Part shown: piece after piece, positions 1 through 45,815 of the stretch
Layout of the letters: every line of letters begins with the position of its first letter
Position numbering within the stretch: the first letter of the stretch is position 1
Origin: Phycicoccus sp. HDW14
GTDB lineage: Bacteria > Actinomycetota > Actinomycetes > Actinomycetales > Dermatophilaceae
Direction: 5' to 3'
DNA length: 64,000 nucleotides
Assembly (NCBI RefSeq): GCF_011383005.1
Contig: NZ_CP049935.1
Location: 2,046,001-2,110,000 of the forward strand
The notes under the pieces: model-generated
Databases searched by the model: none
Seen by the model: the letters and a program-made list of their open reading frames with translations, nothing else
Told to the model about the DNA's origin: nothing
Program-made: the position numbers and the translations under genes

Positions 1-263
1 TCATCAGCCACATCACCATCCACCCCGGCACCCCAGGAGCGCGGACCATCGACCCGGCCCGGGTGGGCATCACCTGGCGCGTCTAGGCGCAGCGGGCGGG
101 GAGCGGCCGCGCTGCCGCGCTTGCGCCCCTCCCCTCCCGCTTCCGCCGACAACGTAGCCACCTGACGCAGCACAACGGGATCGGACACGAACACCGGCAC
201 TCCCGAGGCCTCACACGTGGCAGCCACCCACGCGACCAGGGCCTCCCGTTCTAGCCGCGCCAC
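1..263 (-). CDS. Small ORF overlapping the 3' end of rep, open at the window edge
   Basis: A GTG at 263 overlaps the last codons of rep and opens a frame beginning MARLEREALVAWV, with an amphipathic helix and then GVPVFVSDPVVLRQVATL. The first ~55 residues look like a real protein (helix, short hydrophobic strand, DPxVxxxV helix). After that the composition becomes Arg/Pro/Gly-rich and resembles antisense sequence of the recombinase tail. No stop codon is seen before the edge, so the true end is unknown or the frame is broken. The overlap with rep suggests coupled translation. I recall short REALVAWV...GVPV...DP proteins beside actinobacterial Rep genes, but no function can be given. Confidence 0.42.
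   Translation of the reverse strand, partial: MARLEREALVAWVAATCEASGVPVFVSDPVVLRQVATLSAEAGGEGRKRGSAAAPRPLRLDAPGDAHPGRVDGPRSWGAGVDGDVAD
3..86 (+). CDS. C-terminal fragment of a possible large serine recombinase (runs off the left edge)
   Basis: The frame opening at base 3 encodes 27 residues ending ...DPARVGITWRV before a TAG at 84-86. A tail of the form G-x-x-G ... (F/I)DPxRVxIxWR is one I associate with C-termini of actinobacterial large serine recombinases, and such an enzyme would explain integration into a conserved P-loop codon. The catalytic serine domain would be off the window, so the assignment rests on the tail only. The opposite-strand small ORF overlaps this stretch, and at most one of the two is likely to be coding here. 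Confidence 0.4.
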   Translation: MSHITIHPGTPGARTIDPARVGITWRV

Positions 264-1054
264 TGGACCCACACCGCCGGAGGCCCCTGCCAGTCCACGG
301 CCTCATCCGAGGACCAGAACACATCCGGCGGGCCCCCCATCGCCCCCGCTGCCGCCTCTAGGACCTCATCCCGCGACGCACCTTGCAGCAGCACCTTTCG
401 CGGCGTGTACCCCTGCGCAACGTCGAAGCGATGCAGCCCCCTGGGTCGCCTCACCCCGGCCGCGTCGTCATCGAAGGACTTGCCCACGTACTTCGACAGG
501 TACCCGGCCGCCTTGCGCGACTGCGCGAACGAACCCGACCCCACCGGCAGGTCACCCAGCAGTTTGATGTGGACGAACCCGTGCCCCCACGCCCGGTCGA
601 TCTTGCCCCGCGCGATGAAGTCCCCCACCGCGAAGTGCAGGTGCAGGCCGTGCCCGGACTTGTGCCACTCCGGCACCCACACGTACGGGAACGGCTTGCC
701 ACCGGTCTCAGCGCGCAGCCTGCGGAAGAACACCCCCACGTCTGCCCGAGCCTGCCGAGGGTCGTGCACCCCAGACCCCGCATAGGTGAGGGTCCCCAGC
801 CGATTCAGCCCGTTTGCAGCGCAGTAGCGCCGCATCCGCGAGCGAGCACGCCGACCAGCCTCCTCTCGAGACCGCTCAGGGTCCGCAGCCGGACCACACC
901 GCACACCCGGCGGACGCGGTCGAGATGACACGAAGCCACCCCCCGCCTCCCCCGCAGCAGCACACAGGGACAACTGCCACCCCTTGAAGATCGGTGGCTC
1001 ACGCAGCACTGACGACGACACGACGAAACGCTCCACAGGACGAAGGCGAAGCAC
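251..1054 (-). CDS. rep: Rolling-circle replication initiator (HUH-endonuclease Rep)
   Basis: A 267-residue protein with the three ordered motifs of rolling-circle initiators: motif I LGTLTY (about 86-91), the metal-binding HUH motif HLHF with His138 and His140, and motif III YLSKYVGK with candidate catalytic tyrosines Tyr185 and Tyr189. Such enzymes nick the double-strand origin and remain covalently bound to the 5' end through the tyrosine. They serve plasmid and ICE replication, and related folds act in conjugative relaxases. The start is uncertain: the first ~70 residues before the Arg-rich stretch may not be translated. A small ORF overlaps the end, and an inverted repeat 300 bases upstream could be its origin. 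Confidence is high for the HUH Rep class; the host element is not identified. Confidence 0.75.
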   Translation of the reverse strand: MLRLRPVERFVVSSSVLREPPIFKGWQLSLCAAAGEAGGGFVSSRPRPPGVRCGPAADPERSREEAGRRARSRMRRYCAANGLNRLGTLTYAGSGVHDPRQARADVGVFFRRLRAETGGKPFPYVWVPEWHKSGHGLHLHFAVGDFIARGKIDRAWGHGFVHIKLLGDLPVGSGSFAQSRKAAGYLSKYVGKSFDDDAAGVRRPRGLHRFDVAQGYTPRKVLLQGASRDEVLEAAAGAMGGPPDVFWSSDEAVDWQGPPAVWVQWRG

Positions 1055-1358
1055 CCGGACATGCGAAAGACCGGGAGCCCTTGGCTCGACCGGTCTCGTG
1101 TCGTCATCAGGGCGACCTCAGACCCCTGCGGATGGGCCTGCTGCCGTAATCCCGTCACCCTGCAAGTCGGTTTTGGACGTCTACACCTGCGTCCGGCTGT
1201 GACTGCTTTGCACCCCGTGGCCAGGGAGTTCTCCGTAGTAGTTAGTTCGCCCCGGTCAGAGGCGCCGCCCCCAAATCACAGCACGCGAACTACCCGCGTG
1301 TCACCTCAGCCGTTCGGCTCACCTTCTCGGCCGCCGACCCGCCGCGCCAGTCTCTGAC

Positions 1359-1419
1359 GGCTCCCCCGCCCGTCAAGGGTCCGCTACGCCGCTGCGCGCC
1401 CTTGACCGGCTCCCCCGCC
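1359..1419. repeat. Inverted/direct repeat cluster upstream of rep, candidate replication origin
   Basis: Inverted arms GTCAAGGG (1372-1379) and CCCTTGAC (1399-1406) enclose a 19-base loop. A 12-base direct repeat GGCTCCCCCGCC occurs at 1359-1370 and 1408-1419, flanking the inverted pair. Rolling-circle double-strand origins are typically hairpin-forming repeats close to rep, so this is the best origin candidate. The rest of the rep-nuclease gap (1055-1502) shows no convincing gene on either strand. Confidence 0.42.
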
Positions 1420-1502
1420 GCTCAACGACAGCCGCTATGGGTCGCCAGCCTCCCTGTGGTCACGATGACGAGTTGTGTTGCTAGTTCAAGTCAAGACCGT
1501 CG

Positions 1503-2579
1503 TCACCGGCGCTGCCTCCATGCCAAGAGCGCCCGCTCTCGCCCTGCTGCGAGAAGTCGTCTCGTGAGTGAGGCAGCCTCCCTTCCGTCGACCGGCTCGT
1601 GCACGACAGGGATTGACACCGAGCGCGGCTCTAGATGCGGCTCAATAGAGCCGAACATATTCGCGCCAATGTCTTTCACGTAACCCCTTCCGGTGGACAG
1701 TTCCTCCGGGTGTCGCAGGCATCGCGCGGCGAACTCGTCGGCAAATGGGCCAAGCTGCTCGTCAAGATAGGTAGTCAAGTAGTCCACGTGTACGAAGTCA
1801 ATCGCGGCAGAGCGCCCCTGGTCCCGGGAACTGGCCCCGGTGGCTGGCTCGTGGCGCATTAGTCGCTGCCACTCAACACGTTTCAGTACGGTCTGGCCGG
1901 ACTCATCCAGGTCGGCTCGAAGCATAGGGGCATCGATGACGGCAAGCGGGACTGCAAGGCTGGCCCGAAAGTAGTAAGCGCTGGACGGCGGACGCATCGC
2001 CTTACGGTAGTGATCCAGCGCGCTGAGGATTGGCATCACGGTGGACTGGTAGGCCTCACTCCCCGACATCACGAGGTCCTTGCCCTTCCGTGTGCACCTG
2101 CTCAGGGTAATCGCGCACTCGGCATCCACCACAAAATCCATCTCTGGCAGGCCGAGTACCTGAAAAGGTGTGAAAAGGAACTTTGATCGTGTACCGCCGC
2201 TGGACGTAGAAACGTACTCATGAGCCAGACCGACAATCTCCGGAAACGAGTCCCAAGTCTTCCCGGAAGTGCCAAAGAAAACGTACGGCATATCCGATTT
2301 CTTGCACTCGATAATCAGTGACAAGTCCGGCCGCACCCTTAGGTTGTCGCCGTGCGATGCTTTAGCCAGGTACTTAGTGGCGACGAGATCAATCGATCGC
2401 ATTTCTGCGCTGAACCTGTCTGCGTAGCCCCATTCGGCTTGAGTGTCGTAATCCCCGCTCAAGAGCGCTTCGACCCTCAACTGAAGCGGGTAACCAGACT
2501 GTCGCACTGCTGCGTGAACATCCTCCAACTTCACCCCCGCGCCCAGGTCGTCACTGGACGGCGCTTCAGATTTACTCAC
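1503..2579 (-). CDS. PD-(D/E)XK nuclease-like protein carried by the mobile element
   Basis: From a GTG at 2579 this frame encodes about 358 residues. The N-terminal third carries a restriction-endonuclease-like signature: Glu37 in a helix, RSIDLVA with Asp64, then DLSLIIECKK with Glu91-x-Lys93. This is the E...D...ExK order of the PD-(D/E)XK superfamily. The C-terminal two thirds are unfamiliar. A GGGAG about eight bases upstream supports the start. The gene lies 67 bases inside the element and in frame with the truncated tadA, so an unbroken 587-residue fusion could also be read. Lower G+C than the flanks indicates transfer. A defence or anti-phage role is inference from fold and location. 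The identity of any partner, and the domain beyond ~120 residues, is unknown. Confidence 0.55.
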   Translation of the reverse strand: MSKSEAPSSDDLGAGVKLEDVHAAVRQSGYPLQLRVEALLSGDYDTQAEWGYADRFSAEMRSIDLVATKYLAKASHGDNLRVRPDLSLIIECKKSDMPYVFFGTSGKTWDSFPEIVGLAHEYVSTSSGGTRSKFLFTPFQVLGLPEMDFVVDAECAITLSRCTRKGKDLVMSGSEAYQSTVMPILSALDHYRKAMRPPSSAYYFRASLAVPLAVIDAPMLRADLDESGQTVLKRVEWQRLMRHEPATGASSRDQGRSAAIDFVHVDYLTTYLDEQLGPFADEFAARCLRHPEELSTGRGYVKDIGANMFGSIEPHLEPRSVSIPVVHEPVDGREAASLTRRLLAAGRERALLAWRQRR

Positions 2580-2639
2580 GCCCGCACACTCCCACAAGCG
2601 CGCGCATTCGTGTGGACCGCGAGGGGCGTACTGAGAGTT

Positions 2640-2665
2640 TGTCGGGTTGCCGGCCTGGGTGCCAC
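2640..2665. other. Element/chromosome junction (att site) in the Walker A codons of tadA
   Basis: On the minus strand the host frame reads GGT GGC ACC CAG GCC GGC and then AAC, where AAG/AAA (Lys) of GGxxxGK is expected. The host sequence therefore ends within codon 2648-2646. The shared crossover core must lie in or beside GGCACCCAGGCCGGCAA (about 2647-2663). The second junction is outside the window, so the core and any target duplication cannot be measured here. Confidence 0.65.
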
Positions 2666-3266
2666 CGGCGACGAGGATGTTCAGCCCGGCGGCGACCGAG
2701 GCCTCGAGGAAGCGCGCGGCCTGTGGCGTGAGCGTGCCGAGCCGCACGAGGTCGTCCATCGAGTCGGCCTTGACGACGAACTTGCGGATGTTGACGAACC
2801 AGTGCTCGCGGGTGATGTCGGGGATGACGACGTGCAGCCGGCTGCCGTCGGGGAGCACGGCATCGACGAACGGCGAGCTGAGGTCGACGCGGCGGCCGGA
2901 GGACTTGAGCATCCGCTCGACGAGGTCGCGCACCTGCTCGTGCTCGAGCAGCGTGGTCGTCAGCTCGGCGATGCCGTCGCGGGCCACGAAGACCCGGGAC
3001 GGCTCGTTGACCCAGATCTCCTCGACGTGCGGGTCGTCGAAGTACTGCTGCAGCGGGCCGTAGCCGACGACGCTGTCCCACACCGCTTTCGACGCGACAT
3101 CGAGGTCGGCGAGCACCGGCATGCCGCCGTGCATCGAGCGCTCGTCGTAGTCGCTGACGGCCTCGCGGACCAGCCGCCTCACAGCTCCCTCGTCGCGCAC
3201 GGGGTCGAGCCCGGAGCGTCGGATGAGCTCGCGGACCTCTCCCTCGAGCGTGCGGACGGCGTCCAC
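2646..3266 (-). pseudogene. TadA/CpaF-type secretion ATPase, N-terminal part interrupted by the mobile element
   Basis: From GTG 3266, preceded by a strong AAAGGGGG Shine-Dalgarno, the frame encodes the N-terminal domain and the start of the motor domain of a CpaF-family ATPase. Recognisable parts are GYGPLQQYFDDPHVEEIWVN, VDAVLPDGSRLHVVIP, the IRKF stretch and GLNILVAGGTQAG. At residue ~206 the Walker A lysine is replaced by element sequence, so catalytic Walker B, Asp/His boxes and the C-terminus are missing. The protein must be non-functional as an ATPase unless the element excises. It is a different subfamily from the intact TadA at 44.4-45.8 kb, and partner TadB/TadC genes may lie left of the window. 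It is divergent from the EssC-like gene, with a 147-base gap. Confidence 0.82.
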
Positions 3267-3413: not shown

Positions 3414-6400
3414 ATGCAGATCCGCCTGACGCTCCACGCCCCGAGGCGCCGCCCGCGCCCCGAGGAGCTCGTGGTGCGCTGGCACCGGCCCGAGCCGGTG
3501 GCGGTGCTGCGCACGCGGCTCGCCGACCACCTCGGTGAGCCCGTTGGCGCGCTGGCCGTCGACGGGCGGGTGCTGCCCGACGGCCTGCTCGTCGGGGAGC
3601 CACCGCTGCTCGACGGGGTCTCGGTGGCGGTCCTCCCGGACCCCGGGGCCGGTCGGCCGGGCGGCGCAGGGGCGCGCCCGGCCACCGTCCTCGAGGTCGT
3701 GTCCGTCGGCGGCCCCGACTCCGGCCGCGGGCTGCCCCTCGCGGCGCCGGGGCTCGTCGTCGGTCGCTCCCCCACCTCCGGGCTGCGGCTCGACGACCCG
3801 TCGCTGAGCCGCGCCCACTGCCGCCTCGACGTGGGCACCGACGGCGTGCGCGTCGTCGACCTCGGCTCGACGAACGGCGTCGAGGTCGACGGCGCCCGCG
3901 TCGTGGGCAGCGCCCCGGTCGACACCACGTCGCGGATGGTCATCGGCGCGACCACGCTGCAGCTGCGTCGGGCCGGTCCACCCGGTGCTCCCGTGCGCCA
4001 TCCCGGCGACGGCACCGCCGTCGTCGCCCCGGTGCCGACGGCTCCGCCCGCCGTACCGACGGCCGAGCTCCTCGCCCCGCGCGCCCCCGAGCCACCGGTC
4101 CGCGGACGGGTGCCGTGGGTCGCGGTCCTGGCCCCGGTCCCCGTCGTCGCCGTGCTCGCCGTCTTCCTCGGTCCGCAGGTGCTGGCCTTCGCGGTGCTCG
4201 GGCCGGTCGTCCTCCTCGCCACCGGCCTCGGCGACCGCGTGGGGTCACGGCGCCGCCACCGGCGGGCTCTGGCCGCGCACGCCGAGCGGGTCGCCGAGCA
4301 CGAGCTCGGGGTCGCCACCGCCCTCGCGGCCGAGTCCCGGCTGCGCCACCTGCGCCACCCCGACCCGCACGAGGTCGTCCGCCGGGCCGCGGGGCGCACC
4401 TCTGGCCTCTGGGCCATGAACGGCGACCGGTCGGTGCGGCTCGGGCTGGGCGAGGTCTCCGCGTCGTGCCGTGTCGTCGACGACACCGGCCGCGCCGACC
4501 GACGCACGCTGGATGCGGTCCCGGTCGTCGTCGACCTCGCCGAAGCGCGCGGGCTGGGCGTGGTCGGACCCGAGGACGACGCGCGTCGCCTGCTCGCCGC
4601 GCTGCTCGGCCAGCTCGTCGTGCGCTGCCCGCCGTCCGACCTCGGTGTCGAGGTCCTCGGCGGCGGACCGGTCTGGGCCTGGGCCGGCCTCCTCCCCCAC
4701 CGAGGACCGCCCGACGCGCGCCGCGGGGTCGTGCTCGTCGTGCCGGACGCCACGGCCCCCGGCGTGGCCGCGCGGGTGGCCGAGGTGCACGCCGCCGGCG
4801 GGGTGGTCCTGGCCGTGGCCGGCTCGGCCGACGTGCTGCCCGACGCGTGCACCGTGCAGGTCGAGGTCGGCGGGGGCGGGCGATCGAAAGTCACCACGGG
4901 CGGAGTGACGCGCGACCTGGTGGCCGACGGTGTGGGCCCGGCGTGGTGCGAACGGCTCGGCCGCGCCCTCGCACCGGTCCGCGAACAGGGCTCCGCCACC
5001 ACCGCCCTCCCGCGGGCGCTCACCCTCGGCGAGGCAGCCGGCGACGACGCCCTGACCCCGTCCGGGCTGCTCGGCCGGTGGTCGGTCTCTGTCGGACGTC
5101 CCACCGCCGTCGTCGGCACCACCGCGGACGGCCCGTTCCGGCTCGACCTCGCCGCCGACGGACCCCACGTGCTCGTCGGGGGACGACGGGGTCCGGCAAG
5201 TCCGAGTTCCTCCGCACCCTCGTCACCGCCCTGGCCCTCGACTCGTCCCCGGAGGACCTCACCCTCCTGCTCGTCGACTTCAAGGGTGGCGCGGCCTTCG
5301 GTCCGTGTGCCGACCTGCCGCACGTCGTCGGGCTGGTGACCGACCTCGACGAGCACCTCGTGCGCAGAGTCCTCACGTCACTGGAGGCCGAGCTGAGGCG
5401 ACGGGAAGGAGTCCTCGCCAGGGCCGGCTGCGCGGACCTGGACGAGCACCGGCACCGGCTCGACCCGGCCGACCGGATGCCGCGCCTCGTCGTCGTCGTC
5501 GACGAGCTGCGGGCCCTCGTCGACGAGCACCCCGACGCCGTGAGCGCCCTGGTCCGGCTGGCGGCGCAGGGCCGCAGCCTCGGCATCCACCTCGTCCTCG
5601 CGACCCAGCGACCCGCAGGCACGGTGACCGCCGAGGTGCAGGCCAACGTCAACCTCCGGGTGGCCTTCCGGGTCCGGGACCGCGCCGACTCCGTCCACGT
5701 CGTCGAGGACGACTCGGCGGCCTCGCTGCCCGCCGACGTGCCGGGGCGTGGGGTCGCCCGCGGCGGCGACGGCACGTCGACCACCTTCCAGGCCGCCCTC
5801 GTCGCCCCGCCCGTGCCGTCCGGACCGTCGCTCGTCGTGCTCCCCGCGGGCACGGAGCCCGGTCCGGGTACGGGGACCGGTCCGGGCACGGGGGCCGGTC
5901 CGGGCACCGCCACCGCCGACCGGGCCGCCGAGCTGGCCGCTGTCGTCGAGGTCGTCCGGAGCGCGCACGACGCCACCGGGGCCGCACCGCCGCGTCGTCC
6001 CTGGGTCCCACCCCTGCCGACCACCCTGCCGTCGGGGGACGCGCCTCCGGGCACGCTCGCCCTCGTCGACGAGCCCGACCGCCAGCGTCACGTGCCGTGG
6101 ACCTGGGACCCCACCGTCCCCCTGTGGCGTGTCGTCGGTCGCCCGCGTTCCGGTCGCACCACCGCCCTGCGCGCCCTCGTGGCCGCCGCGGCCTCGCTCC
6201 TGCCGCCCGAGCGCCTGCACGTCCACGTCCTCGGTCCCGACCTCGAGCCGTGGCCGTTCCCCCACGTGGGCACCGTCGCCCGGCTCGGCGATGCCGCGGC
6301 GGTGCACGCGCTGCTCGACCACCTCTCGGCGCCCCCGGGGCCCGGGGTTCCTCTGCGCCTCCTCCTCGTCGACGGGTGGGACCAGCTGACCGATGCCGAC

Positions 6401-42405: not shown

Positions 42406-44418
42406 TCACACCTCGATCTTGACGATCTTGCGCATCCAGAGGATGCCGAGCCCGATGGCGACGATGCCGCCGCCGAGCATGAACAGGCCGAGCGTGCGCG
42501 TCCACAGCATGCTCACGTAGTCGTGGTTGGCCCACATGCTGTAGAAGAAGATGCCGATCGGGAGGCCGACGAGCGCGTAGGCCGAGAGGCGACCCTCCGC
42601 GGAGAGCGCCTTGACCTGGCGGCGGAGCATCTCGCGCTCGCGCAGCGTCGCGGCGGTGGTCCGCAGCGTCTCGGCGAGGTTGCCGCCGACCTCGCGCTGG
42701 ATGCGGATGGCCATCGTCGTCCAGCGCATGTTGTGGCTGTCCATCCGCAGGGCCATCTTGTCGAGCGCGTCGCTGACGTCGGCGCCGATGCGGGCCTCGG
42801 CCAGCGCGCGGCTGAACTCCTTGGCGGCCGGCTCGGGGGCGTCCTTGGCCACCGAGTCCAGCGCCTGGAGGAGGCTGAAGCCCGAGGCGAGCGAGGTCGC
42901 GACGAGCATCATGACGTCCGGGAGCACCGACTCGAACTTGCGCGAGCGACGCTTGGCGAGGAAGCGGAGCACGAACGGCGGGGCGATGGCGCCGACGACG
43001 AGCCCGAGCACTCCCCCGATGATCGGGTGCGAGCCGAGAAGCAGGATGCCGCCGGCGATGCCGATGACGACGGCGACGAGGCGCATGACGAGCCACTCCC
43101 CCGCGCGCCAGGGCAGGTCGGCGCGCACGAGCAGCTCCATCGTGCGGGTCGTGGAGTCGCGACCCTCCATCAGCTGCTCACCCATGCTGACGATCGACTC
43201 GCTGATGGCCGAGGCGTTGGCCGCCTGCCGCTGCGGCGTGCGGGCCTTGCCGAGGCCGTAGTCGTCGATGGCCGAGATGCGCTCGCTGCGCTTGCTGCGG
43301 AAGGTCGGGCCGGCGAAGGCGACCGCGAGGACGAAGATGCCGATGAAGACGACGGCGACGGCCGGCACGAGCAGGGCCGGCGACACGGCGGTCAGCGAGG
43401 CGAGCGCGGCCGGCGTCTCGTCGAGGTCGGGGACGACGAGCGGGCCGTCGTCCGCGGGAACGACGACGGGAGCGGTGTCGCCGAGGTTCAGCGGGGACGT
43501 GTTGTGGAAGGACTGGCCCGACGCGGTGCCGTCGACCTTGAGGGTCTGCTCGCCACCGACGTCCCCGGGGCGGGTGATCGTGAGGCGCACCTGGGAGTTC
43601 AGGGCGATGGCCGCGGCCGAGAACGCCGACGAGACGGCGGCCCGGTCGGCGGCGTTGGCCACCGACCCTCCACCGGCGGAGGCGAACTGGCGCAGCACGG
43701 CGGTGTTGGCCTCGCCCGAGTTGAACGAGACGACCTCGGCCCGGACCTTGGCCTTCGTCAGCGCGCTGAGCGCCGCCTGCCGCTGGTTCTCGGAGCGGGC
43801 GTCGCCGCCCTCCATCGACGCCACGGTGTCGCCACCGTCGCTCAGGAGGATGATGCTGCGCTCGCCCTTCGTGCCGAGGCCGCGCACCGCGTCCTGGACG
43901 CCCTTGTACAGCGAGGTCTCCCCGCCGGAGCGCAGGGAGTTGACGGCCCGCGAGACCTTGGCGCGGTCGGTCGTCGGGGAGACGTCGATGCCGCTGGTCG
44001 AGGCGAACGAGACGACACCGACCTTGACGTCGGACGGCGCCTCGGAGAGGAACTTGGCGACACCGGCGCGGACCGTGGCCATGCCCGAGGCACCCATCGA
44101 GCCGCTCGTGTCGATGACGAGCATCGTCGCGCGCGGCTGCTTCGAGGGCTCGGAGACCTTGACGGGCACCAGCCGCGAGCCGAACGTCGCGGTGACGCTC
44201 TTCCAGTCGACCTTGACGGCGCTGCGCGGGCGCAGCACGAGGGTGGCGGTGACGGTGTCCTTGGCGACGCGCACGTCGCTGAGGGTCGACGGGATCCCGT
44301 CGTCGGCCAGCGCCGCGGGGGCACCGAGCACCGGCACCACGATGGCCGCCAGGGTGGCCAGCGCCACCGGCGCGGCGGACAGCCGCCGGCCCAGGGAGCG
44401 GACGGGGTGGGCCCTCAC
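42406..44418 (-). CDS. tadB: VWA-TadB fusion: secreted von Willebrand A domain joined to the Tad platform protein
   Basis: 670 residues. A signal peptide ([22 protein letters not shown]) precedes a VWA domain (about 95-270) with intact MIDAS DTSGSMG, a Thr loop (SGGETSL) and LLSDGGD, then a beta-rich region, a membrane helix (about 345-370) and a TadB/GspF domain in the C-terminal half ([23 protein letters not shown]...[11 protein letters not shown]; final helices to 667). TadB proteins are usually ~300 residues and lack VWA. The fusion puts a metal-dependent adhesion or scaffold domain outside the membrane, linked to the pilus motor platform. GTG 44418 overlaps the tadA stop (GTGA). A similar VWA-TadB gene is known in some Micrococcales (recalled, not verified). 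Confidence 0.88.
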
Positions 44419-45815
44419 GCCAGCCTCGCCCCGGGGACGAAGAGCTGCGGGGAGACCTCGACCCCGAGGTCCTGGAGGTCGGTGAGGAACTTCGGCCGCA
44501 GCCCGGTCGAGACGAGCGTCCCGCGGAAGCGGCCGTTCTCGTCGCGCCCGGCGGACCAGTCGAAGGTGAAGATGTCCTGGAGCGTGACGACGTCGCCCTC
44601 CATGCCGACCACCTCGGTGATCGCGACGATGCGCCGCGAGCCGTCCTTGAGGCGGGCCTGCTGGACGATGAGGTCGACCGCGCCGGCCACCTGCTCGCGG
44701 ATGGCCCGCACCGGCAGCTCGACGCCGGCCATGAGGACCATCGTCTCGAGACGGGAGAGCGAGTCGCGCGGGGTGTTGGCGTGGACGGTCGTGATGGAGC
44801 CGTCGTGGCCGGTGTTCATCGCCTGGAGCATGTCGAGCGCGGCGCCGTCACGGACCTCACCGACGACGATGCGGTCGGGCCGCATGCGGAGGCTGTTCTT
44901 CACGAGGTCGCGGATGGCGATCGAGCCCTTGCCCTCGATGTTCGCCGGGCGCGACTCGAGCCGCAGGACGTGGTCCTGGTGCAGCTGGAGCTCGGCGGCG
45001 TCCTCGATGGTGACGATGCGCTCGTCCTCGGGGATGAAGCCGGAGATGACGTTGAGCGTCGTCGTCTTCCCCGAGCCCGTACCGCCGGAGATGATGACGT
45101 TGCGCCGGCCGATGACGCAGGCCCGCAGGAAGTCGCGGACGCTGGCCGTGATCGTCCCGAAGGCGATGAGGTCGGCGTCGGTGTAGGGGTCCTGGGAGAA
45201 CTTGCGGATGGTGAGCATCGCGCCGTCGAGGGCGATCGGGTTGATCACCGCGTTGACGCGCGAGCCGTCGGGGAGGCGGGCGTCGACGAGCGGGCTGGCC
45301 TCGTCGACGCGGCGGCCGACGCGGCCGACGATCTTGTCGATGACCCGGCGCAGGTGGGCCTCGTTCGAGAAGTGGGTCTCGACCCGGTAGAGCTTGCCGG
45401 AGCGCTCGACGTAGATCATGTCGGCGCCGTTGACCATGATCTCGGAGATGTCCGGGTCGCGCAGCAGCGGCTCGAGCGGGCCGTGCCCGAGGATCTCGTC
45501 CGACACCTCCTGCGCGATGCGGGTGCGGTCCGCGTGGCTGAGCGGCGTCTGCTCGGCGTCGATCGTCTCCTGCAGCGTCGTGCGCACCTGCTGGGCCAGC
45601 TCGGCCTCGGCGAGGTGCGGGTCGTACAGGCGCGGCCCGAGGCTGTCGATGAGGGCCTGGTGCACGCGCCCCTTGACCTCCGCGAACGGGTCGACGACCC
45701 GGCGGCGGGCCACGTGGCCGGGGCGGGCCGTCGCGACCTGGGCCGTGGTGTCGGTCTGGGAGGTGGCGGCCGCCTGGGCACGGCGGACGCTGTCGAGACG
45801 GTCGGCGAGGCTCAT
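44415..45815 (-). CDS. tadA: Tad pilus secretion ATPase TadA/CpaF, intact
   Basis: 466 residues: N-terminal helices, [37 protein letters not shown], Walker [14 protein letters not shown], Asp box ([13 protein letters not shown]), Walker [12 protein letters not shown] and His box [13 protein letters not shown]. It powers Flp pilus polymerisation as a hexamer under TadB/TadC. It overlaps TadZ and TadB by four bases each. It is only distantly similar to the interrupted paralogue at 2.6-3.3 kb (different N-terminal region and ILVAGGTQAG P-loop), so the chromosome carried two Tad-type ATPases. Confidence 0.95.

Follow-up and report, generated by a model that had tools for sequence, protein, structure and literature searches.

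Here, we show that a small integrative element of Phycicoccus sp. HDW14 has inserted site-specifically into the Walker A lysine codon of a tadA/cpaF gene, that it belongs to an integrase-plus-Rep family with a variable cargo slot, and that elements of this family have used tadA repeatedly. Within the host family, tadA is a hotspot, a recurrent target hit at several positions by distantly related recombinases. The window, that is, the whole stretch of 64,000 nucleotides analysed, corresponds to positions 2046001-2110000 of the host genome (G000, a single contig of 4,071,256 bp); positions refer to the window unless given as genome positions. Taking the evidence as a whole, the element in the tadA lysine codon and the hits on tadA and comEC probably block curing of the host by transformation.

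On the minus strand, the tadA/cpaF frame runs from a GTG start at position 3266 to position 2649 (206 codons, ending ...NILVAGGTQAG) and is then replaced by foreign sequence. A search of the whole host genome for T2SSE domains located the 3' half on the same strand, 3.9-3.98 kb away and left of the window, at genome positions 2044061-2044669 (PF00437 positions 154-274 at 2044265-2044672). Each half exceeds the PF00437 cut-off on its own, and the best NCBIfam match of both is TIGR03819 (TadA-family ATPase; E=1.9e-30 for the 5' half), below the whole-protein cut-off, as expected for halves. When rejoined, the flanks aligned with the intact tadA of the congener G158 in one gap-free block of 1259 nt across the junction (identity over the whole alignment, 1275/1400), and residues 1-407 of the rejoined query (409 aa) share 98% identity with the G158 TadA protein. 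Core to core, the insert is 3979 bp long. Among twelve genomes of the genus, G000 included, tadA is uninterrupted in nine and broken in three (G000, G161, and G163), at a different place in each. A first-pass annotation of the window had proposed a mobile element located exactly in the Walker A codons of this gene, and the split gene, the integrase at the junction, and the gap-free empty site in G158 confirm it. Leftward extension of the sequence, which that annotation had advised, placed the other junction, the recombinase, and the tadA 3' half left of the window; the 3' half is thus present on that side, and relatives carry empty sites, not the same fused gene.

The element spans genome positions 2044670-2048648 (1..2648 in the window), with its right junction left of the window, and carries a single cargo gene besides a large serine integrase and an HUH Rep. 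The integrase gene (463 aa, plus strand, genome positions 2044695-2046086, its 3' end at 1..86) begins beside the right junction and combines Resolvase, Recombinase, and zinc ribbon domains in one gene (PF00239, PF07508, and PF13408, all above the cut-offs). With its two hybrid junctions, their short common core, and a precise empty site in relatives, the insert is, judged by sequence, a large serine recombinase integrative element. The HUH-type replication initiator (Rep) is encoded at 251..1054 on the minus strand and matched PF23343 (REP_ORF2-G2P, E=5.1e-15) and PHROG 3419, a rolling-circle initiator (1.4e-19); its residues TLT, HxH, and AxYxxKYVxK are invariant in eight of eight aligned Reps. 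Upstream of rep, a stem-loop (GTCAAGGG...CCCTTGAC, 1372..1406, minus strand) is a candidate replication origin or regulatory site. Of the 24 loci searched, 6 contain it with no more than 4 mismatches (L007, L009, L010, L016, L046, and L055); the other 18 have no match within 10 mismatches, and the best match in 24 shuffled regions had 13. The cargo ORF (358 aa, 1506..2579, minus strand) has a GTG start preceded by GGGAG (by eye) and, like rep, lies on the tadA strand, so that tadA transcription could feed the cargo. This protein had no match in Pfam, PHROGs, NCBIfam, PADLOC, PDB sequences, or viral contigs, and an AlphaFold prediction without an alignment was uninformative (mean pLDDT 32). Its residues PDLSLIIECKKS resemble a PD-(D/E)XK motif, and the protein may be a nuclease of that type.

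Judged by Rep, a phage or plasmid origin of the element was not supported: tblastn against phage and plasmid collections gave no match at E<=1e-5, and neither the single sequence nor an alignment matched viral contigs. The integrase was compared with phages, and its full-length matches were 31-35% identical and shorter ones at most 42% (20 of 36 records listed); among the matches listed, the full-length identities are too low for assignment to a phage integrase family. For a filamentous (inovirus) prophage, no morphogenesis ATPase or coat gene was recognised among the ORFs, small coat genes being outside the search. The HUH Rep could serve in mobilisation by a helper, as in an integrative and mobilizable element.

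In the region of G000 that covers the whole element and both junctions (L007), one end has the letters ...GGTGGCACCCAGGCCGGC-AA-CCCGACAAACTC and the opposite end ...GACAAGTCGGC-AA-GACGACGCTCCTC. Comparison of the flanks with the empty site of G158 and with the ends of three related elements (L009, L012, and L016) points to AA (2647..2648, minus strand) as the crossover dinucleotide. It forms bases 1 and 2 of the Walker A lysine codon and is common to both element ends, and the element starts at the base directly after it. We take AA as the shared dinucleotide because the bases flanking it differ between the two junctions in L012 and L016 (by eye). The lysine codon, assigned to the element in the first-pass annotation, is therefore element sequence at its third base on the 5' side, where the interrupted frame reads Asn (AAC), but not at bases 1 and 2. 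On the element side, the dinucleotide is the centre of an inverted repeat, GTCGGC-AA-CCCGAC (by eye). The host 5' frame stays open into the cargo ORF in G000; translated by eye, the 5' junctions of L009, L012, and L016 reach a stop within about 30 codons, and the lack of an open frame at these three junctions rules out a fused functional tadA-cargo gene.

An assembly artefact at tadA is very unlikely, because the same type of junction occurs in independent genomes. Judged from apparent frame changes elsewhere, the G000 assembly contains errors; such changes were seen at the tadB start, near window position 5180 (by eye), and perhaps in the 3' piece of comEC. The one near position 5180 affects an ORF of FHA/FtsK-type appearance (by eye), where the frame changes in a G-run beside its own Walker A motif, perhaps through a sequencing error.

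The split tadA shows no decay, either because the insertion is recent or because the gene is renewed by excision or recombination: the G000 branch carries 0 non-synonymous and 12 synonymous changes and the G158 branch 1 and 14, with 63 differing codons unplaced. Such preservation would also suit a regulated switch, in which the element would be excised under certain conditions and leave tadA restored, comparable to the regulated gene integrity of skin/sigK and hlb prophages. The flanks would rejoin without loss of a base, and most of the 3' pieces among those listed for broken genomes lack an internal stop. However, a young insertion would be equally free of decay, and inspection by eye of the six tadA elements mapped in full revealed no recognisable directionality factor; we regard a switch as quite improbable.

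The rejoined TadA protein was searched in 184 genomes of the host family, with ten candidates scored per genome and counts made by hand. Among the matches listed, 137 genomes had one full-length tadA (two of them with a stop inside the match), 30 a broken one, and 17 none, giving 167 with tadA whole or in pieces; the 17 yielded paralogue-level matches or nothing (G118 alone was inspected closely). Again among the matches listed, 16 of the 167 had tadA split on one contig, with pieces 3.9-74 kb apart (G000, G004, G007, G075, G080, G099, G100, G111, G123, G139, G147, G161, G163, G172, G175, and G177). Within this group, the calls for G007, G111, and G123 are weak, their 5' pieces being only 41-55% identical, as is that for G175, whose pieces overlap. 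The other 14 broken genes comprise one frame change (G119) and 13 that end at contig ends or lack a part. The cuts fall at about seven positions, near residues 80-90, 109, 141, 164, 206, 233, and 295. A serine integrase lies beside the cut in G000, G177, G147 (both cuts), G100, G099, G139, G163, G172, G175, G007, and G111, and a tyrosine recombinase lies inside the insert in G161, G075, and G004; the assignment does not extend to G080, G123, and G064 or, G058 excepted, to the contig-end cases. A tblastn search with stop-to-stop integrase frames against the other cut loci returned mostly antisense-tadA artefacts.

The Walker A codons are used by three integrases (G000, G100, and G099) that are mutually 29-35% identical and cut in slightly different registers. 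For the cut at residue 233, identities among the integrases of G139, G147, and G058 lie at 54-85%; for that at residue 295, G163 and G175 have integrases sharing 67% identity, and the G172 integrase reaches only 26-28% with them. The tadA cuts thus reflect both shared descent and convergence. One tadA of the family contains two elements (L009; G147:C11:594901-674695): the Walker A codon is occupied by an int-rep element of 4.6 kb, and about 27 codons further lies a 74-kb insert with its own serine integrase. In Modestobacter altitudinis (L105, L106, and L016), tadA is interrupted twice, near residue 90 and at 206; the third piece of the gene ends at 234, no remainder having been found, and the int-rep integrase there contains frame changes.

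Relatives of the integrase were found at nine loci in GTDB contigs and, at E<=1e-80, in 8 of 186 family, 11 of 396 order, and 10 of 394 class genomes (own genome counted; the sets overlap). Thirty loci were examined, own included (L007-L016 and L041-L060; a further match, G696:C76, was left out), and in 24 of them a Rep lies beside the integrase. The remainder are L053, L056, L059, and L060, where no Rep was detected, together with L015, which ends at a contig end, and L042, which holds the first integrase half only. With the distant integrases L053, L059, and L060 set aside, the targets of 27 loci (own included) were the tadA P-loop site in 9, an HNH motif in 10, and sites elsewhere in 8. The tadA 3' half abuts the start of the integrase in 9 of the 27, in several actinobacterial families. 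At the HNH-motif loci (L042-L046, L049, L051, L052, L055, and L057), seven are clear in frame and three (L044, L045, and L051) were judged by eye in another frame; their attB right arms resemble the tadA one, and a DUF222 gene on the other flank was confirmed in both loci tested (L049 and L052). The target of L008 (by coordinates the same locus as G159) is a near-palindrome of the tadA left arm, GGCACCGAGGCCGG-CAA-ACCGGCCTGGGTGCC. In G074 and G121, the 5' half of tadA runs into what resembles (by eye) the left end of an int-rep element; the 11-13 kb taken contained neither int nor rep, and these may be remnants or rearranged copies. The expectation that a conserved P-loop would offer such an integrase a target in many hosts holds in so far as the site is reused in several actinobacterial families, but the HNH-motif (10/27) and other loci (8/27) rule out specificity of the integrase family for the P-loop alone.

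An integrase tree of 27 rows, with three outgroup rows kept and L015, L016, and L042 dropped as short, required at least 5 changes of the tadA label (65 of 500 shuffles were as low; shuffle mean, 6.3). The HNH label was clustered (1 of 500 shuffles as low). Moreover, L048 and L049 have near-identical integrases at different target sites. From these label changes and this pair, it follows that integrase targets change easily and that the tadA site was reached several times; target choice is loose, since DUF222/HNH and other sites are used and the tadA label is unclustered relative to the shuffles.

Alternatively, tadA may be no more than a neutral safe haven, a landing place selected for its conserved P-loop DNA and its dispensability, with loss of DNA uptake as a side effect. 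The HNH-motif and other sites of the same integrase family and the L048/L049 pair both favour this. A paralogous Tad/CpaF ATPase gene served as control (44418..45815, minus strand), which is uninterrupted and has its own P-loop. Among the matches listed, 82 of 84 were near full length at E<=1e-150, 66 of them at >=68% and 16 at 56-62% identity, and 2 were partial, from the fragmented genomes G181 and G016. No split on one contig occurred among these 84 (matches listed, down to E of about 7e-69, eight candidates scored per genome). Same-contig splits thus number 16/167 in tadA versus 0/84 in this single control gene (Fisher p=0.0017, ignoring relatedness), and breaks of any kind 30/167 versus 2/84 (Fisher p=0.0002, likewise ignoring relatedness). 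Among the matches listed, tadA is the more widespread gene in the family, occurring in 167 of 184 genomes against 84 for the control paralogue (16 of these at only 56-62% identity), which would make tadA the better target for spread alone. Against a neutral haven, the paralogue, whose P-loop is conserved too, has no same-contig split among the matches listed, serine integrases only 27-39% identical to that of G000 as well as tyrosine recombinases hit about seven tadA positions, and comEC is hit in the same genome. We consider neutral settlement in tadA rather unlikely.

The comEC gene of G000 is split into residues 3-272 and 293-799, 44 kb apart (G000:C1:849860-896144; L119 and L120). With a serine integrase next to the 3' piece and an internal Amidase_2 gene, the insert may be a prophage. 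The comEC domain is uninterrupted in 11 of 11 congeners. Across the family, PF03772 was matched in 179 of 184 genomes; in 12 of these, of which G000 was the one inspected, the domain match is weak or falls into parts (best E above 1e-40; G000, G062, G067, G068, G095, G102, G111, G114, G126, G135, G146, and G166).

The cargo differed in each of the six tadA elements mapped in full: a family-less protein in L007; SIR2 in L009 (PF13289, 9.9e-22; ThsA in PADLOC, 5.7e-28); a DEDD exonuclease with a family-less ORF in L012; NACHT in L016 (1.4e-13); an FkbM methyltransferase with a STAND/AAA ATPase in L041 (2.7e-11 for the ATPase); and LPO_1073 in L054. At the other loci, cargo was taken as the ORFs next to Rep, the element end being undefined, and three libraries received slightly different sets; the scan covered the loci other than L008, L010, L011, L014, L044, L055, L056, and L058. 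It yielded CAP12/Pycsar TIR in L052 (1.7e-21), a PIN-like domain in L051 (1.1e-65), a weak OloA match in L049 (4.2e-6), a sub-threshold STAND match in L013, and LPO_1073 in L048 and L057. The cargo of L043, L045, L046, and L050 had no Pfam match, and that of L047 had sub-threshold matches only. The cargo slot is thus variable, with predicted defence-like genes in several loci and proteins of no assigned family in many, and because of this variety (SIR2, NACHT, STAND, TIR, and many family-less proteins) the elements look like small carriers of partly defence-like genes. Proteins of the LPO_1073/Vpar_1526 family recur at different target sites (L048, L054, and L057) and are a candidate defence family. 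Some phages use pili as receptors, and loss of the Tad pilus could protect host and element alike from pilus-specific phages; the sometimes defence-like cargo would accord with an element that lives by protecting its host. Escape from such phages leaves the split comEC in the same genome unexplained, and we hold it to be highly improbable as the main cause.

The type of insertion described here has parallels in elements that disrupt comYC, comK, comFA, comM, and comEC (PMC4774983, PMC11472951), which likewise are site-specific and break uptake or recombination genes. Croucher 2016 (PMC4774983) argues that elements break competence genes to avoid removal by transformation, and cites divergent integrases converging on comFA at two sites. 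Recurrent targeting by different integrases was also found here (16/167 splits among the matches listed, with serine and tyrosine recombinases). In Acinetobacter baumannii, comM is inactivated in 22% of strains, partly by loci with defence systems (Mazzamurro 2024, PMC11472951), a cargo comparable to that of our elements. Unlike those cases, the host here is an actinobacterium, the gene encodes a Tad pilus ATPase, and the crossover lies in the catalytic lysine codon; neither 'tad' nor 'actinobacteria' occurs in the main text of Croucher 2016 (PMC4774983). By analogy, the tadA pattern can be regarded as the same in form as known competence-gene disruption, in another gene and phylum. The integrase belongs to the same enzyme class as the large serine recombinases with conserved coding-sequence attB sites of Durrant 2022 (PMC10083194), whose text reports enrichment in competence genes; 'tada', 'ATPase', and 'T2SSE' do not occur in that text, and its supplement may list tadA. 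Since this enrichment covers serine integrases in general, selection specific to tadA is unproven.

AICEs of the pSAM2 type also combine an integrase with a replication initiator; serine recombinases are found in a minority of them, in some cases with a protein-coding gene as the insertion site (PMC3218068). Unlike an AICE, the 4-kb element has no recognised FtsK/SpoIIIE-type transfer gene, its main ORFs being int, rep, and cargo, and no RepSA, RepAM, or Prim-Pol; its Rep matches PF23343, and RepSA only at E=0.068, below the cut-off. The serine integrase type of the phiRv1 prophage uses REP13E12, and DUF222/HNH targets recur in the relatives described here; to our knowledge, the tadA site is not a phiRv1 target. 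Among the titles and abstract openings of the best-ranked literature matches, none concerned tadA/cpaF as an integration site; supplements and most subscription papers were beyond reach of this search, and priority is not established by it.

The reading we favour, that these insertions block curing by transformation, would proceed as follows. The element would integrate by recombination of attP with attB, the crossover falling on the AA that opens the Walker A lysine codon. Broken off ahead of its catalytic lysine, the ATPase should be non-functional, and tadA function would be lost. If DNA uptake in Actinobacteria depends on the tad genes and comEC, uptake would be lost as well, and an element residing in an uptake gene would keep element-free DNA, taken up by transformation, from displacing it in its host. 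In Micrococcus luteus, a different host, deletion of comEC or of any tad gene except tadB abolishes transformation, and both tad clusters are required (PMC4322843). If the control paralogue serves uptake, that it is not hit runs contrary to a simple sabotage model, because both M. luteus clusters are required. We know of no natural transformation in Phycicoccus sp. HDW14.

It is tempting to extend this reading, although tentatively, to a conflict over transformation at the Tad pilus motor gene in Actinobacteria. Several kinds of serine and tyrosine recombinase elements may have settled independently on conserved codons of this gene, at least three mutually distant serine integrases on Walker A alone. 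Among them, a class of 4-6 kb with a serine integrase, an HUH Rep, and an interchangeable, partly defence-like cargo, of which we found no description, could lock out transformational curing while selling immunity to its host. New anti-phage proteins could be sought in the cargo slot of these very small integrating carriers, whose integrases come with a defined site. If the conflict is real, lineages in which mobile elements have put an end to DNA uptake would be recognisable by broken tadA and comEC genes. Intact copies would then indicate transformable species, in a phylum in which transformation has been little studied.
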